Assembly (NCBI GenBank): GCA_019634625.1 | Contig: JAHCBA010000012.1 | Coordinates: 62,001 to 126,000, forward strand | Direction: 5' to 3' | DNA length: 64,000 nucleotides | From: Verrucomicrobiia bacterium | GTDB taxonomy: Bacteria > Verrucomicrobiota > Verrucomicrobiia > Limisphaerales > CAIMTB01 | Shown here: one piece after another, positions 1 to 49,145 of the stretch | Numbering within the stretch: the stretch's first letter is position 1 | How the letters are laid out: each line of letters begins with the position of its first letter | The notes under the pieces: model-generated | Databases searched by the model: none | The model's input: only the letters and a program-made list of their open reading frames with translations | What the model was told of the DNA's origin: nothing | Program-made: the position numbers and the translations under genes

Positions 1-1423
<1,423 letters not shown>

Positions 1424-1547
1424 TCGTTCGGATCAAACCGGACGAGGTCGGACCGGATGCAAATTCGGTGATGTCGCTATCGCACAAACCAGTTTTTAGG
1501 AACACGCCAGACCCGGAAGGGGCCGGAAGCGGCCTGGGCTGAACGGC

Positions 1548-1623
1548 GGGGCTGTAGCTCAGTTGGTAGAGCGGTAGCTTTGCAAGCTATAGGTCAGGAG
1601 TTCGAGTCTCCTCAGCTCCACCA
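1548..1623 (+). tRNA. tRNA-Ala(TGC)
   Basis: A 76-nt cloverleaf with CCA encoded. The acceptor stem pairs GGGGCTG with CAGCTCC and the anticodon TGC lies at 1581-1583. It sits in the 16S-23S spacer, upstream of tRNA-Ile. Confidence 0.98.
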
Positions 1624-1634
1624 GGACCTTCAGC

Positions 1635-1711
1635 GCGCCTGTAGCTCAGTTGGTTAGAGCACGCGCTTGATAAGCGCGGGGTCACTGGTTCAAGTCCAGT
1701 CAGGCGCACCA
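1635..1711 (+). tRNA. tRNA-Ile(GAT)
   Basis: A 77-nt cloverleaf with CCA encoded. The acceptor stem pairs GCGCCTG with CAGGCGC and the anticodon GAT is at 1669-1671. It starts only 11 bases after tRNA-Ala. The order Ala then Ile is the reverse of the common Ile-Ala order in bacterial rrn spacers. Confidence 0.98.
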
Positions 1712-1822
1712 ATTTGCCTGCGTCGATCGCGACGCCGGTGGGTTCTTTGACAACTATACATGGAATCAGCAGGGCAGTAACAGAATCGTCGAGTTCCATG
1801 GGATGGCCCATGGACCGGTTTT

Positions 1823-4689
<2,867 letters not shown>

Positions 4690-19656: not shown

Positions 19657-19878
19657 TGGTAGGAAGTCCCGCGGCACGCTGGAGTCCATGCGGCTCGGGC
19701 GCATCTCAGGCTCTTGGAATCTGCCCAAGCCACCCCTCGTTGGGACTCGTACTCAGCCCGAAGGGCGGTACTCGTCCTCGACCCCGCAGGCGCACCTCTC
19801 TTGAGCGTCGCCTGAGGGCTGGCCCGGTGGGTTTGGTATTTTTCTAAGCTCCAATGCAGCCAGGGAACTGGGGAGGGA

Positions 19879-19992
19879 GATTAAGATTAAGATTAAGATT
19901 AAGATTAAGATTAAGATTAAGATTAAGATTAAGATTAAGATTAAGATTAAGATTAAGATTAAGATTAAGATTAGGATCACGATCACGATCAC
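19879..19992 (+). repeat. hexanucleotide tandem array (GATTAA)15-GATTAG-(GATCAC)3
   Basis: Fifteen perfect GATTAA units (19879-19968), one GATTAG unit, then three GATCAC units (19975-19992): 19 hexamers in all. Both strands stay open through it (Arg-Leu or Ile-Leu repeats) but no start, stop context or homology supports a protein. It lies between the M56 gene and a truncated dispersed element and abuts that element exactly. Confidence 0.97.
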
Positions 19993-20094
19993 GAGTCCTC
20001 ATCCCAACGCTCCACACCGTTGCGGCCTCGTGGAACTCGGCCCTCCGAGGCGATGCTTCGCGAAGTTCGTGCCTCGACCCACAACTCGGGGATG
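19993..20094 (+). repeat. MITE-like dispersed element, copy A (right part)
   Basis: Matches the 3' two thirds of copy B (24621-24773): AACGCTCCACACCGTTGCGG, GTGGAACTCGGCCCTCCGAG and CTTCGCGAAGTTCG. It ends in CCCACAACTCGGGGATG (20078-20094), nearly the reverse complement of the left end of copies B and C, so this copy keeps the right terminal inverted repeat. Its left part is replaced by the hexamer array. Confidence 0.85.
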
Positions 20095-23908: not shown

Positions 23909-24847
23909 ATGCCTGACCTGTCTGTCCTGATGATTCCGTGGGCGGTCGGCTTCCTGGCCGGCTATCTCGCCTGCATTCCGGTGGGGCCCGTCAACGTGAC
24001 GATCATCAACGAGGGGGCGCGGCGCGGTTTCCGGCACGTGCTGTTCATCGGGTTGGGCGCGGTGCTGATGGAGGCGATCTACTCGATGGTCGCCTTCGCC
24101 GGTTTCGCCCGGCTCTTCACTTCGACCTGGGTACGCGCGGTGATGGAACTGGTCAGCTTCGTGGTGGTCAGCGTGATCGGCGTGAAGTACCTCCTGACCC
24201 GGGAGATGCCGGCCACGCCCCACGCGGTCGTGGTGGTGGAGCAGCGCCTGCACCCGCACACGGCGTTCATGACCGGGTTTGTCAGGGTCCTGGGCAATCC
24301 GGTGACGCTTCTCTTCTGGGTTGCCTTTGCCGCCGCCTGCGTGGCCCACGAATGGGTGGACACCACATGGGCCTCGAAGGGTGCCGCCGTTGGCGGCATC
24401 GCCATGGGATCCTTCGCCTGGTTTGCCAAGCTCGGGTACGCGGTGTCACTGGGGCACCGGCGATTCTCGCCCAGGGTGCTGCTGCGCACGGCCCACATCT
24501 CGGGGGCGATCCTGATCGCGGCGGGGCTCTTCATGGGGGGCCGGCTCGTCACGGCGCTGGCCCGACACCATCAGCTTCAGAAGCCCAAGGAAACGCGGGC
24601 GCCGATCCTGGATCGGGCGCATCCCGGAGTTGTGGGTGAGGAGGCAGCCAATCGGAGGGACGAGCTCCGCGAGTCCTCGATCCAACGCTCCACACCGTTG
24701 CGGCCTCGTGGAACTCGGCCCTCCGAGGCGACGCTTCGCGAAGTTCGCACTCTCCCCACAAATCCAGGACGCACGATCCTGGATCGGGCGCCCGCGAAGA
24801 AGGTATTGGCGGCGCAACGGACGCGCCTTGGGTCGTCGAGTCCGTGA
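23909..24847 (+). CDS. LysE family exporter with repeat-derived insertion near its C-terminus
   Basis: A 312-residue protein. Residues 1-225 are a LysE/RhtB-type translocator: GYLACIPVGPVNVTIINEGA, FIGLGAVLMEAIYSMVAF, and the later helices with LGNPVTLLFWVAFAAACVA and AILIAAGLFMGGRL. Such proteins export amino acids or similar small molecules. Residues about 238-294 are encoded by a dispersed repeat inserted in frame between two copies of CGATCCTGGATCGGGCGC (24603-24620 and 24774-24791). Without it the protein would read ...RAPILDRA-PAKKVLAAQ. The extension follows the last transmembrane helix, so the transporter core is untouched. Confidence 0.88.
   Translation: MPDLSVLMIPWAVGFLAGYLACIPVGPVNVTIINEGARRGFRHVLFIGLGAVLMEAIYSMVAFAGFARLFTSTWVRAVMELVSFVVVSVIGVKYLLTREMPATPHAVVVVEQRLHPHTAFMTGFVRVLGNPVTLLFWVAFAAACVAHEWVDTTWASKGAAVGGIAMGSFAWFAKLGYAVSLGHRRFSPRVLLRTAHISGAILIAAGLFMGGRLVTALARHHQLQKPKETRAPILDRAHPGVVGEEAANRRDELRESSIQRSTPLRPRGTRPSEATLREVRTLPTNPGRTILDRAPAKKVLAAQRTRLGSSSP
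24621..24773 (+). repeat. MITE-like dispersed element, copy B (complete, with flanking duplication)
   Basis: The fullest copy. The left end is ATCCCGGAGTTGTGGG and the right end is a decayed inverted copy (CCCCACAAATCCAGGA, 24754-24769). Inside are two small dyads: GGAC..GTCC around GAGCTCCGCGA, and CTCGG-CCCT-CCGAG. It is flanked by an 18-bp direct repeat (CGATCCTGGATCGGGCGC), and element plus one repeat is 171 bp, exactly 57 codons, so the LysE frame survives. Confidence 0.85.
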
Positions 24848-32104: not shown

Positions 32105-32275
32105 GGCGGTTTCCACATGGCCGTCGGCGAAAAGCATCATCCGCCAGCCGTCTTTCTCGCCGTAGCCCATGATCCCGGCGCCGGTCGTCGGCGGGTAGTC
32201 GTGGAAGTCACCCAGGTACGTCTGCTGGGCCGGCCCCAGGGTGCGGCCCGCCCGTTTCCTGGCGATGGTTCATCC
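32069..32275 (-). pseudogene. pseudopilin gene fragment 1, internally deleted
   Basis: Minus-strand reading: QQTYLGDFHDYPPTTGAG, IMGYGEKDGW, then RMMLFADGHVETARQTNWL and a stop at 32069. The first part matches the larger fragment at 37810-38103; the second is the conserved family tail (FADGH). The N-terminal pilin signal and a central block are gone. It overlaps the end of the ATPase remnant. Confidence 0.75.
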
Positions 32276-32444
32276 CGGGCGAGTCCGCTGGAATCCCGCC
32301 ACCCGCCGTCGCCAACCGGCCACCGCCACCACGAAATGCCTTGACAGGTGCCCGATGACATCCGCCCGGGTCGTCCCGGCATCAAGACGTCAACTCCGCG
32401 CCTTCCGGCATGCCACCCAGGCGCACATCGGCCTATCAACGCCG

Positions 32445-32882
32445 TCACCGCGGCGGCGGCGAGGCTGGGGTGACGGTGTTGGTCACCGTGGCGAATGCCT
32501 GAAGTCGAAGGGTGGCCTTCTCCGCGGGGATCCAGAACACCCCGTTGGTGTTGTAGCCGCGTCCGAAGCCCAGTCTGGCCGCCTCCTCGTAGGCACTTCG
32601 GGCCGCGACGAACTTGGCGGGGTCTGTCCGGACGAACAGGCGGTTGGCCTCCCCGATGATGAAGTAACGGGTCGCCACGCTGTTCAATGGCCCGTTGGCC
32701 AGGATCGCGTCTCGAGCGGCTCCCGTGACGCCGCCACTCGGCAACGGCTTGCCAGCCCGTTCCAGGTCCGCCTGGAGCGCGCCTGCCGCCGCCTTGAACT
32801 CCCCGATGCATTCCTCGGCCCTGTCGATGGCGACTCCGTAGTCCGCCGCCACCAGAGCGTTCCATGCGGCCGCGGTCAGCAT
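32445..32882 (-). CDS. hypothetical protein, TPR-like C-terminal fragment
   Basis: A 145-residue frame: DRAEECIGEFKAAAGALQAD, LNSVATRYFIIGEANRLF, AARSAYEEAARLGFGRGYN and GVFWIPAEKA. The alternating helices look like a tetratricopeptide-type repeat region. No signal peptide. It borders the first IS91 remnant (which begins near 32919) and its upstream DNA is debris, so it may be a truncated gene. Function unknown. Confidence 0.5.
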   Translation of the reverse strand: MLTAAAWNALVAADYGVAIDRAEECIGEFKAAAGALQADLERAGKPLPSGGVTGAARDAILANGPLNSVATRYFIIGEANRLFVRTDPAKFVAARSAYEEAARLGFGRGYNTNGVFWIPAEKATLRLQAFATVTNTVTPASPPPR

Positions 32883-32918
32883 TTCATGCTTCGCCTGGGC
32901 GAACGACGGGTACAGCGC

Positions 32919-33410
32919 AACCGTTCCTCAAACTCTGGGAACAGGAGGTCTTCGAGCTGTTCCTGGCCGAGGGTAAGATCACCGAAGAGGTCGTCGCGAA
33001 CATGCGCTCCTGGAAGCATTCGGCCTTCAGCGTCGAGCAGAGCGTGCGGCTGGAGGCAGGGATACCGCCGGCATCCAGCGCTTGCTCCAGTACTTACTTC
33101 GTTGCCCCTTCAGCCAGACTCGGATGATCCGCCTCCGCCAAGGCTACGGCGGGACAAGTCGAGGTCACCGAGGCCGGGAAAGTCATCGACAAGAGCGACC
33201 ACAACGCGGTACGCCGTTTTCCCGAGCCGGGGGACGAGGAACTCCTGGCCGGACCTTCGTGCAACTTCCAGGTGTTCGATCCCTTGGATTTAAACCGACC
33301 CGCTGACCTGTCCCAAGTGCGGTGCGACCATGCGCATTATCGCCTTCATCGAGCGGCATCAGACGGACGTGATCGAGAAGATCCTGAGGTCCCGCGCCTG
33401 CGGGACGGCC
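32919..33410 (+). mobile_element. IS91-family transposase remnant, copy 1
   Basis: Fragments of a Y2-type (IS91/IS801-like) transposase in shifting frames: FLKLWEQEVFELFLAEGKIT, MRSWKHSAFSVEQSVRLEAG, LLQYLLRCPFSQ, then VTEAGKVIDKSDHNAVRRFP and LAGPSCNFQVFDPLDL, then CPKCGATMRIIAFIERHQTD, the zinc-binding end. It is broken by a one-base loss near 33060, a 29-bp insertion at 33130-33158 and an internal deletion at about 33297. The N-terminal half is absent. The second copy (38661-39079) is about 98% identical by eye. Confidence 0.85.
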
Positions 33411-37809: not shown

Positions 37810-38103
37810 CCGTCGTTGTTCCTGGCGATCGGTGAACCGGTCGTCGTTCACGCCGATGAAGGGGATGAGCTTGAGCTTCCAATCGTTCATCATCAGCCAG
37901 CCGTACTTCTCCCCGTAGCCCATGATCCCGGCGCCGGCGGTGGCCGGGTAGGCGTGGAAGTCGCCCAGGTACATCTGCTGGGCCAGCCCCAGGGTGCGCA
38001 GGTTGTTGCGGCCATCGGTCGCGAGGGCCGCCCCCCTGCCCCGGGACAACGCCGGCAGCAGCAGACCGGCCAGGATCGCGAGGATGGCGATCACGACCAA
38101 CGC
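37810..38103 (-). pseudogene. pseudopilin gene fragment 3 (N-terminal and middle part)
   Basis: Minus-strand reading: VVIAILAILAGLLLPALSRG, then NNLRTLGLAQQMYLGDFHAY and AGIMGYGEKYGWLMMNDWKL. This is a pseudopilin that has lost its leader and FTLIELL start; the join at 38103-38106 runs straight into a PIN gene on the other strand. Its end past 37815 is also lost. It matches fragment 1 closely in the shared segment. Confidence 0.8.
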
Positions 38104-38105
38104 TG

Positions 38106-38491
38106 GTGGACACGGATGTCCTGCTGGATGTCGCCCTGAAACGCCCGGAATTTCATCGCGATTCCGCCGCAATCCTGGACTGGGGCGAAGCGCATTCCGG
38201 CAGTCTGGCGGTTTCGTGGCACAGCCTGGCAACCCTGTTCTACCTGGTACGACCCGATGCCCGGCCCTTCATACAGGACCCATCGAGTTCGCCGATCTCC
38301 CGGCCGTAGGACGGGAGGCCATGCTGGCGGCCCTGAGTTTTCCCATGGCGGACTTGGAGGACGCCATGCAAGCCGCTGCGGCACTCGCCTTCGGAACATA
38401 TTTCATCATGACCCGGAATCTGGCCGACTATCGTCCATCGCCGGTGCCCGTGTGTTCGCCGGTTCAAGCCATCCGGCGGTTGCGGACGTGA
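38106..38491 (+). pseudogene. PIN-domain toxin broken by a frameshift
   Basis: First frame: VDTDVLLDVALKRPEFHRDS and SGSLAVSWHSLATLFYLVRP. Near 38280 the frame shifts and continues as FADLPAVGREAMLAALSFPM, DLEDAMQAAAALAFGTYFIM and TRNLADYRPS. Together they make a full-length PIN protein (D, E-like, D and N/D motifs), so one small indel separates it from an intact gene. No antitoxin gene precedes it; pseudopilin fragment 3 does. Confidence 0.75.
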
Positions 38492-38660
38492 ACCGCGTCG
38501 GCACAAGCCTTGCACCCGCCGTCTTCCGGTTCCCCCACCTCGACCTCGGCCGCGTTGCGCGCCCCCTCCTCCTGTTGGACAGCGGCGATGACCATGAATG
38601 GGGGATGTGGTCCGAGGAGTTGCCATAGCGAGAACCCTTCACCTCGCGTTGCCCAAGCTG

Positions 38661-39079
38661 GCGAGCGCACCGTTCCTCAAGCTCTGGGAACAGGAGGTCT
38701 TCGAGCTGTTCCTGGCCGAGGGTAAGATCACCGAAGAGGTCGTCGCGAACATGCGCTCCTGGAAGCATTCGGGCTTCAGCGTCGATCAGAGCGTGCGGCT
38801 GGAGGCAGGGGATACCGCCGGCATCCAGCGCTTGCTCCAGTACTTACTTCGTTGCCCCTTCAGCCAGGCTCGGATGATCCGCCTCCGCCAAGGCTACGGC
38901 GGGACAAGTCGAGGTCACCGAGGCCGGGAAAGTCATCGACAAGAGCGACCACAACGCGGTACGCCGCTTTCCCGAGCCGGGGGACGAGGAGCTCCTGGCC
39001 GGACCTTCGCGCAACTTCCAGGTGTTCGATCCCTTGGATTTAAACCGACCCGCTGACCTGTCCCAGGTGCGGTGCGACA
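38661..39079 (+). mobile_element. IS91-family transposase remnant, copy 2
   Basis: Nearly the same sequence as copy 1 (about nine differences in 410 bases), with the same 29-bp insertion (38880-38908) and the same internal deletion just after FQVFDPLDL. It lacks the one-base loss of copy 1 (reads EAGDTAGIQRLLQYLL). It ends in LTCPRCGATM, so the last part of the zinc-binding tail is lost. Downstream is a 27-bp stretch that also occurs at 36544-36570. The stretch 38492-38660 before it holds nothing recognisable. Confidence 0.85.
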
Positions 39080-39176
39080 ATGGTTCGGGTCGGCGTGACC
39101 GGAGCCGTGGACAAGGCTTGGTTGCCGGCCTTCGGACCCTTTGACATCTTGATGCAGCATATTCACACTTTGATGC

Positions 39177-39844: not shown

Positions 39845-39966
39845 TCCGGGGCTCACGCTGGAGGCCCGCTCCCGAGACCGCGTCAGGTCGTCCCGGGTGA
39901 GAGCTCCATGGCCGGGATTTCGAACAACCGCAGATCGTCCCGATCATGCCCCTTGTCTCACCCTCC

Positions 39967-40084
39967 GAGCGTCGCCTCGGAGGGCCGAGTTCCACGAGGC
40001 CGCAAGGGTGTGGAGCGTTGGATTGAGGACTCGCGGAGCTCGTCCCACCGATTCGCTGCCTCCTCACCCACCACTCCGGGATGC
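39967..40084 (-). repeat. MITE-like dispersed element, copy C
   Basis: Minus strand: starts GCATCCCGGAGTGGTGGGTG, then GAGGAGGCAGCGAATCGG, GACGAGCTCCGCGAGTCC, CAACGCTCCACACCCTTGCG and GAACTCGGCCCTCCGAGGCG, ending near GACGCTCGGA. The left end is intact and the right end is truncated. The stop codon of the VIT/vWA gene (40064-40066) lies inside it. Confidence 0.85.
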
Positions 40085-42709
40085 ACCGCGGGACCGCCAC
40101 AACAGCAGAACCAGCCCCGCCAGCAGCAGGGTTCCCACCCCGGGCTCCGGAATCGACGGCACCGTGAGCGGATCGGCCGGGGTCAGCTGATGATCGGCGA
40201 ATTGCTGCGCCGTCTCCAAAACCACCGCCCCGGTCACCGGAGTGACCAACTGATACCGGGCCGCCAGGCGCACGGCCTCCGAGTGCTTTCGAGCCCGGCG
40301 CCGTCGTTCCACCTCACCGTGGGCCCACAACCGCGCCAGATGCCCGGTGGTCTCGACCGCGTGCAGCCCCTCCGGCGGCGTTGTCAGCGTGTCGAGAGTG
40401 CGCTCCCACTCCGAACCGAGCGTCCCGCCCCGGGTCATCAACCCCCGAAGGTCTTCCTCCAACGATCCGCGGCGTGGATGCGCACGCACCCCGGGAAGCC
40501 CGTCCAGATCCTGAAGGAGTTGGTTCGGACCCGGACGCACCGGCAGGGCGACGAGCGTGACGCCGGACCCATGGCGTTCCCACCGCTGACGCAAGGCCTC
40601 CGGGGAGGAGATCGCCACGGGCTGCGGCCCATGCACCCAGACCATCATCGAGTCCGGGCCCGCCCCAATCGCATCCCTCGCAGCGAGGAGCGCCGGGACG
40701 TTGTCGGCCCCTCCGCGCAGTCGCATCCCCTCCAGGCGTGCCGACCAGCCCGTTGCCACGCCTCCAGTCCCGCCCGGCGGCAGGAGCCATACCGGCTCGT
40801 CCGTGGCCAGCAGCACCCCCGCCCACGGAAGCTCCGCCACCGCCTCCTCCAGCGCCGCGGCCGATTCGGCGAGGAACCCGGTCATCCCCACAGAACCGTC
40901 GAGGACGAAGACCACCCGGTTCGGGACGACAACGGGCACGGGGGCCAGGGTCTGCCGTACCACGGGCGCCCCCTCGGCCCGCCGGTCCCGGGTCCATGCC
41001 ACGGTGACTTCCGGCCTCCGGTGCACCCGCACCCGCGCGTCCCCGGAAACCAGGGTCTGCTCGTCCAGCAGGCCCTGCAGGGAATGCGCCTTCGGTCCCG
41101 CACCCAGCAACGGCGAATCGGCCTCAACAGGTCCGGTGGACTCCACCCAGACGGTGTGCCGCAGCGCCCCGCCAATGTTGAAATTCCGTTCCAGAAACAC
41201 CGGCCACCGCCATTCCGCCCGGGCCCCGGCATCGAGCGGCAACGGCGCCGTCCAGCCGATCCGCGTCTTGATCGTCCCGCCCCGCCGGGGCACGGGAAAG
41301 CACTGGACCAGGATGCGGTCGGGACCGCAGGTGTTGACCAGCACGGGATCGCGACGCTGCCGGATGGCGACGCTGCGGTAAGCCTCGCGAACGCGGCCCC
41401 GCTCGGCGAAGGCCGCTTCGCGTTCCTCGCCCTCGACCCAAAGGGTGAGCCGCGAAACGACCGCACCGGGTGGCAGCAGCACCTGGGCGCGGGCCTCCTG
41501 ATCGAGGTCCCCGTCATTGCGGAACTCAAGGATCCATTCGCCGTAGCCGATGGCCGCGTCCGCATCGAGCGTGACGTCCAGCCGCGACGTCGTCAGGGAC
41601 AACCCCTTGAGCCTCCCCCCCACCCGGTCGCCACCCTGATCCGCATCCCAGGTCCACTGGTTCAACTCGGCGAAGGCGCCGCGGCCCGTGCGCACTGCCG
41701 GGGCGGGGACGGTGTTGAACGGCCGGCCGGTCACCCGGTAGTAGAGGACACGCGCCTGTTCGGGCGACGGCGGCGGACTTGGAAACATCCACTCGGTCGG
41801 ATCGAGACCGGCCGCACCCCGGCCCCGCCCGTAGCAGGCGCGGAGCAGGGCATCCTCCTGCCCCACCGCCCGCAGCCATCGCAGCCCGCGCCGCTCCGTG
41901 GCGGGGTCCTCCGACAAGGCCCATCCCATGCCGGCGCGGGTGAGCCAGCCCGGGGCATTCAGGGCAACCAACGCGAAGAACCCCAACAGGGCTCCGCGCT
42001 GGATCGCCGGAAGCAGTCCCTCCGCCGCGGGCCGCAACGCACGGAGCCGGCGCCGAAGGAAGATCGCGCTCAGGAACGCCAGGACCGGCGCGCAGGGCAG
42101 CAGGCCGATGCCCAGGTAGATCACGCCGATGAGACCGAACGGTGTCATGGGCAGAAACAGCACCGTGTAGAATCCGGCCACCCCGAGAGCCAGGCCGTTC
42201 CCCCAGCCCAGTCGCCGCGGCGAGGCAACCCGTCCCTCCCGAATGGCCCGCCAGACCTGGAAGTTGCCCAGAACCACCAGCGCCACCAGCAGCCCGTGCA
42301 ACGGCGTCGGCAGCGGATCGAAGAATGCAGCGGCACACATCCCGAGACTCCACTCCAGGAACAGGGTGACCGCCGGCAGAACCACCCCGAAACCAAGCAG
42401 AAACACCATGCCCCAGTCGCGTCGCCCCGACGCCCGGACCGTGGCCAAGGCCGGGTCGGACTTCTCAGGGGGAGAACCCGTGGGAACGCCCGGCGCCGCG
42501 TTGTCGGGCAGCCCAATCCGCGCGGTAATGCGCCGCACGTCGTCTCCGGTGACCACTTTCAATCCAGCACCCGCCACGTCCTCCTCCACATGGCGCCGCA
42601 GATCGTCGAGCACTTCGTCCGCCTCCGCCTCCGGGAGATTCAGACTCCGCCGCGCCTCGTCGAGATAGCGCTGCAATTCGCCACGGCCCGCGTGGGTCCA
42701 TTCACTCAT
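40064..42709 (-). CDS. membrane VIT/vWA-domain protein with HAAS-like start and PEP-CTERM-like tail
   Basis: An 881-residue protein. Residues 1-65 resemble a HAAS-type adaptor domain (YLDEARRSLNLPEAEADEVL, DDLRRHVEEDV). About six transmembrane helices follow (95-240). A VIT domain lies near 385-500 (LPPGAVVSRLTLWVEGEERE, REAYRSVAIRQRRDPVLV) and a von Willebrand A-like domain near 598-760 (VVFVLDGSVGMTGF). The MIDAS motif is DGSVG rather than DxSxS, so metal binding may be impaired. The tail IPEPGVGTLLLAGLVLLLWR then SR is PEP-CTERM-like, suggesting processing by an exosortase. The gene is preceded by a strong AAGGAGGT and coupled to padR. The overall order recalls exosortase-linked VIT membrane proteins of Bacteroidetes. 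Confidence 0.85.
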   Translation of the reverse strand: MSEWTHAGRGELQRYLDEARRSLNLPEAEADEVLDDLRRHVEEDVAGAGLKVVTGDDVRRITARIGLPDNAAPGVPTGSPPEKSDPALATVRASGRRDWGMVFLLGFGVVLPAVTLFLEWSLGMCAAAFFDPLPTPLHGLLVALVVLGNFQVWRAIREGRVASPRRLGWGNGLALGVAGFYTVLFLPMTPFGLIGVIYLGIGLLPCAPVLAFLSAIFLRRRLRALRPAAEGLLPAIQRGALLGFFALVALNAPGWLTRAGMGWALSEDPATERRGLRWLRAVGQEDALLRACYGRGRGAAGLDPTEWMFPSPPPSPEQARVLYYRVTGRPFNTVPAPAVRTGRGAFAELNQWTWDADQGGDRVGGRLKGLSLTTSRLDVTLDADAAIGYGEWILEFRNDGDLDQEARAQVLLPPGAVVSRLTLWVEGEEREAAFAERGRVREAYRSVAIRQRRDPVLVNTCGPDRILVQCFPVPRRGGTIKTRIGWTAPLPLDAGARAEWRWPVFLERNFNIGGALRHTVWVESTGPVEADSPLLGAGPKAHSLQGLLDEQTLVSGDARVRVHRRPEVTVAWTRDRRAEGAPVVRQTLAPVPVVVPNRVVFVLDGSVGMTGFLAESAAALEEAVAELPWAGVLLATDEPVWLLPPGGTGGVATGWSARLEGMRLRGGADNVPALLAARDAIGAGPDSMMVWVHGPQPVAISSPEALRQRWERHGSGVTLVALPVRPGPNQLLQDLDGLPGVRAHPRRGSLEEDLRGLMTRGGTLGSEWERTLDTLTTPPEGLHAVETTGHLARLWAHGEVERRRRARKHSEAVRLAARYQLVTPVTGAVVLETAQQFADHQLTPADPLTVPSIPEPGVGTLLLAGLVLLLWRSRGASRSGG

Positions 42710-49034: not shown

Positions 49035-49061
49035 AAAATACGGGGGTGATTCCTGGGCGGT

Positions 49062-49145
49062 GCCTCCCGGGGTTGTGGGTGAGGAGGCAGCGAATCGGAG
49101 AGACGACCTCTGCGAGTCCTCAACCCAACGCTCCACACCGTTGCG
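49062..49145 (+). repeat. MITE-like dispersed element, copy D (left part)
   Basis: Begins GCCTCCCGGGGTTGTGGGTG, continues GAGGAGGCAGCGAATCGG and AACGCTCCACACCGTTGCG, then diverges. It keeps the left end and the first half of the family. It lies in the upstream region of the DUF4143 ATPase gene, which is transcribed leftward, so it may affect that promoter. Confidence 0.8.

Follow-up and report, generated by a model that had tools for sequence, protein, structure and literature searches.

We consider it highly probable that a MITE with ISKra4-like ends entered a LysE exporter gene at its 3' end, that a 162-bp variant of the element kept the reading frame, and that the hairpin inside the element was captured separately. 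Taken alone, the LysE copy is an ordinary MITE insertion. With clearly less assurance, we lean towards a wider reading, in which protein-coding palindromes of several families are present in an order of Verrucomicrobiota-type bacteria and have entered essential genes (ValRS, RsmA) again and again at shared permissive sites, and in which an ISKra4-like MITE has captured one of these palindromes. It is the in-frame palindromes of the order that merit further study.

The insertion lies in a window of 64,000 nucleotides, the whole stretch of DNA that was analyzed, whose positions are used below:
23909..24847, plus strand: LysE-type exporter ORF, 312 aa with the insert and 255 aa without it
24596..24620, no strand: left part of the near-palindromic target, which reads GCGGGCGCCGATCC-T-GGATCGGGCGCCCGC with the element and one duplication removed
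24606..24614, plus strand: left 9-bp target duplication, TCCTGGATC, of the sole duplication length that exceeds background in 52 copies
24615..24776, plus strand: MITE, the 162-bp variant of a 163-bp element, by profile match, at 94% to the copy C9:175966
24615..24640, plus strand: left terminal inverted repeat, ISKra4-like, consensus CGGTGCATCCCGGAGTTGTGGGTGAG, matching the right end of an IS in the sister-species genome G004
24652..24726, no strand: inner hairpin core, 75-80% identity over ~75 bp to loci L179-L184
24755..24776, minus strand: right terminal inverted repeat, diverged, AATCCAGGACGCACGA, by alignment to the consensus
24777..24785, plus strand: right 9-bp target duplication, TCCTGGATC, on the same basis as the left copy
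19992..20069, plus strand: partial copy of the same element (D7)
39957..40088, minus strand: truncated copy of the same element, by profile match
49057..49145, plus strand: truncated copy of the same element (D13)

The exporter ORF matches the Pfam family LysE (PF01810) over aa 23-208 with an E-value of 5.5e-21 and has orthologues at 74-78% in four genomes of the same genus. The 18-bp direct repeats CGATCCTGGATCGGGCGC described in the initial annotation do stand at 24603-24620 and 24774-24791, with a spacing of 171, and the ORF at 23909-24847 (+) runs across the insert without a stop, also as described. The repeat pair is not a product of chance, for the segment that it encloses has hundreds of near-identical copies in the genome. 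The element is absent from the orthologues in all four same-genus genomes, which align well as far as the motif ALA(K/R)H; past that point the LysE tail is not conserved, and the orthologue tails are unalignable, with no exact empty site readable. Presumably, the LysE site was empty before the insertion.

Across the 6.74-Mb genome (88 contigs), a first look returned 606 candidates for the element, and a 17-mer of its end gave 325 and 307 matches on the two strands versus 23 and 17 for the reversed control. A survey of copies covering 1.58 Mb of the genome yielded 215 profile matches, including 52 distinct full-length copies, some elements being matched on both strands because they are palindromic. 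The consensus, CGGTGCATCCCGGAGTTGTGGG...CCCACAACTCCGGGATGCACGG, is 163 bp long and folds end to end into a hairpin of -106 kcal/mol; 40 of the 52 full-length copies have exactly this length. When 9 bp are taken as the duplication, the flanks of these 52 copies have a mean identity of 0.76 versus 0.30 when shuffled, while lengths of 4-8 and 10-15 stay at background. The LysE insert is thus a MITE: it is short and non-coding with terminal inverted repeats, its family carries a target-site duplication fixed at 9 bp in the 52 copies, and an autonomous element with the same ends exists, though in a sister species. Searches of phage records with the element, and of Rfam with window positions 17000-50000, gave no match. 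As separate observations from the window, an array of AAGATT hexamers at 19878-19979 adjoins the partial element copy, and a similar hexamer array adjoins the element copy at G000:C26:96291; two further segments, 32135-33332 and 37888-39082, lie 5.75 kb apart, are 89-98% alike and have the appearance of a gene duplication.

The 18-bp repeat resolves into the 9-bp duplication plus 3 matching bp upstream and 6 downstream. This extra flank identity is the largest among 29 copies (the next is 6, most are 0-2), and the ends of the LysE copy are themselves altered, with GGGC for CGGT as the first bases and ACGA for ACGG as the last, both shifted toward the flank sequence. A possible but rather unlikely explanation is that a 9-bp duplication later grew to 18 bp by template switching, aided by the hairpin and the palindromic target: the changed end bases agree with the flanking sequence, and ATCCAGGA, located at the right end, exactly complements TCCTGGAT of the duplication. 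Against this, one chance match among several hundred copies is not implausible, and palindromic targets have no general link to insertions. The LysE target does have the top palindrome score of the sites examined (7, with a control mean of 3); as a general rule, a preference for palindromic targets was rejected (mean 2.7 versus 3.0 in the control) and holds for the LysE site only. The end bases may stem from chance, from variant ends that were inherited, or from template switching between the copies at a later time.

Retention of the LysE frame, which the initial annotation had credited to the insertion as such, is real and is owed solely to the 162-bp variant: 162 plus 9 gives 171 bp, and the standard element of 163 bp plus 9 gives 172 bp and would shift the frame. 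The LysE copy and C9:175966 have the same 1-bp deletion and an internal variant (AGCCAATC) in common, so the deletion is probably older than the LysE insertion. That LysE gained the 57 residues as a functional addition kept by selection is improbable in our judgment, even though the insert preserves the frame without a stop and, in related families, essential genes carry the same core in frame. Whatever their context, and most are intergenic, 50 of the 52 full-length copies contain no stop in the frame that LysE uses, and the orthologue tail is not conserved after ALA(K/R)H. Under a codon model built on 534 ORFs filtered on position-specific GC, the score per codon is +0.33 in LysE up to the insert, -0.22 in the insert and -0.41 in the remaining tail, although the model is simple and the tail has just 18 codons, so that a weak coding function of the tail is compatible with these values. 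No coding signal was seen on either side of 41 of the 52 copies, and in none of the 52 was there same-frame coding on both sides. Given a frame that is open in 50 of 52 mostly intergenic copies and the negative codon usage of insert and tail, frame retention in LysE is probably incidental. The proposal that the element can act as a protein-coding insert is not borne out for LysE, with its non-conserved tail, open intergenic copies and non-coding-like codon usage, and finds its support in the core hairpin of other families of the order, where the RsmA and ValRS alignments bear it out.

The remaining readings fare worse. An insertion with its target duplication, as first proposed, is borne out, and only the 18-bp length is not; that the duplication spans the full 18 bp and arose by microhomology or a long-stagger recombinase is very improbable, for although both 18-bp copies are identical and the extension past 9 bp is the longest seen, every comparable copy duplicates 9 bp, and the extra 6 bp take in GGGCGC, the bases with which the element itself begins; C3:265684 has this left end too. 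With a duplication of 9 bp, no unusual mechanism is needed. An assembly artefact at the repeat is barely credible, since a false join in this draft of 88 contigs with hundreds of copies would not give a 9-bp duplication that is exact across both flanks.

The source of the MITE ends points in turn to an IS of the same genus. Within the genus, the full element is confined to one species; no copy is present in two of the other genomes, a third matches only weakly and in the inner part, and in G004 just the end sequence matches. This G004 match corresponds to the right end of a 2.2-kb IS (G004:C12 94-2290) with ends GGTGCATCCCGAAGTTGTGGG and CCCACAACTTCGGGATGCACG, which differ from the MITE ends by 1 mismatch in 21. 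Its transposase hits the NCBIfam ISKra4 model with an E-value of 8.4e-45 and 153.6 bits, under the cut-off of 205, and we name it ISKra4-like only. ISKra4-type (p-MULT 4) elements have inverted repeats of 18-39 bp, a terminal C and duplications of 8-9 bp (PMC3942029), and the MITE consensus agrees with this description, starting with CGGT, ending with ACGG and duplicating 9 bp. ISKra4-like IS ends would account for both the mobility of the MITE and its 9-bp duplication. Because both terminal C bases are missing from the LysE copy, it may no longer be able to move. We found no clear 9-bp duplication at the flanks of the G004 IS and no intact helper IS in this genome, the intact IS being that of the sister species; a decayed relative is present in this genome (G000) at C21:99761-101020, with one internal stop. 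At L070 402-2790 (G000:C21), the decayed ISKra4-like IS has end sequences with GTCGG instead of GTGGG and is immediately preceded upstream by a MITE-like end.

Taken together, these results suggest a history in which the inner hairpin would be a separate repeat of the order, found elsewhere as an in-frame palindrome inside genes. In this species the hairpin was probably captured between IS ends and amplified, mostly in intergenic DNA. A non-autonomous MITE with ISKra4-like ends would have transposed into the 3' end of the LysE exporter gene, an ISKra4-like transposase cutting at the terminal repeats and joining the element to a target staggered by 9 bp, which was thereby duplicated. The ends, the duplication and the matching IS of the sister species are observed; the action of the transposase is what we infer from them. 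The inserted copy would already have been the 162-bp variant, so that 171 bp were added and the frame was kept, and because the hairpin has few stop codons, LysE would have gained 57 residues in its variable tail, probably to neither benefit nor harm.

Outside the genus, searches of the order matched only the inner part of the element. Of the 320 genomes of the order, 72 have it as a stand-alone hairpin with no IS ends, recognized by its arm TCGGAGGGACGAGYTCYRCGAGTCC, while controls were near zero. At 28 of 47 loci (some of which overlap) the hairpin lies in frame within long ORFs, and in the genomes G282 and G176, 16 of 26 loci are in frame in genes, the other 10 appearing mostly intergenic by ORF layout; such ORF-based counts favor open frames by construction, so the claim is carried by family matches and by the RsmA and ValRS alignments. 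All ten host ORFs tested belong to housekeeping families by NCBIfam: RsmA, LigA, ValRS, PurM, MutY, HisC, BioF, HemL, DusB and BioA. This genome presents another picture: in the 1.58-Mb sample there are 89 paired cores, of which 53 are bounded by both IS ends, 22 by a single one and 14 by neither. Neither a paired core within a coding frame (0 of 89) nor a stand-alone hairpin inside a gene was found in that sample. The hairpin arm also occurs in tandem, at L189 (G065, 576-3023) within an 816-aa open frame in which SEGRVTRVPN is repeated, and at G170:C4:58684-58933 with a spacing of ~113 bp.

At the RsmA site, two different copies of the core palindrome stand at the same place in G282 and G254, relatives in the genus of G282 have the empty site (ERFSDPHFELLHADAL), and further relatives carry a different palindrome. 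Since RsmA has a single match in G282, the insert-bearing copy is presumably the working one, and this intact single-copy gene suggests that the inserted peptide may be translated as part of a working host protein. Over the RsmA loci L245-L274, one loop carries a hypervariable insert: palindromes of two different families occur there, and in sister genomes the loop is empty. In ValRS, the site after CVEQ is occupied in frame by at least five hairpin families, which are distributed over different families of the order and have fold z-scores against mononucleotide shuffles of about -3 to -11; two ValRS sites with no palindrome score +0.8, which is this genome's own ValRS, and -1.1. As an observation in its own right, ValRS appears as a hot spot for coding palindromes at L218 (G282), L205 (G220) and L275-L304.

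Several known systems invite comparison. Like ISKra4-type (p-MULT 4) MITEs, the element has inverted repeats in the 18-39-bp class, a terminal C in its consensus and a duplication in the 8-9-bp range (PMC3942029), and a same-genus IS that encodes an ISKra4-like transposase shares nearly the same ends; unlike them, its interior is not derived from the IS and consists of an unrelated hairpin repeat that also occurs by itself throughout the order, and the LysE copy is without both terminal C bases. Coxiella QMITE1 and QMITE2, in the part of their description available to us (PMC5896051), are likewise small repeats with palindromes that overlap ORF ends, one with duplications of 7-11 nt. Their ends, judged by that description, are unrelated to those found here, their copies number tens versus hundreds, and the same part of the account reports no series of in-frame insertions into core genes. 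PARCEL is also palindromic DNA that codes for protein (PMC2996958), but forms tandem repeat domains, whereas the palindromes here are single inserts in housekeeping enzymes.

A counterpart in kind of the core hairpin, with no descent claimed, is the group of Rickettsia palindromic elements (RPE), palindromic repeats of several families that lie in frame in unrelated housekeeping genes (PMC10969869, PMC2996958) and have counterparts in Wolbachia and M. jannaschii. The core hairpin likewise stands in frame in unrelated conserved genes, and several palindrome families share this habit, at least five of them at one ValRS site. The stand-alone core differs from RPE in its length (~60-85 bp versus ~150 bp), in its host order, judged Verrucomicrobiota-like from gene content rather than intracellular alphaproteobacteria, in being readable in at least three frames, and in that one version is carried by a transposon, whose LysE copy sits at a gene end in a variable tail. 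In the open-licence literature we found no hosts of RPE-type elements other than Rickettsia, Wolbachia and M. jannaschii (PMC10969869, PMC2996958) and no report of RPE-like elements in Verrucomicrobiota, though an earlier report elsewhere is possible; nor did we find in the literature an account of how the protein-coding palindromes of Rickettsia, Wolbachia and one archaeon move. If the wider reading is right, capture by the MITE would link coding palindromes to a transposase and suggest a route of spread, and the order would be a second bacterial lineage with several palindrome families, shared hot spots in essential enzymes and a transposon-borne version, in which both spread and effect on the protein become testable.
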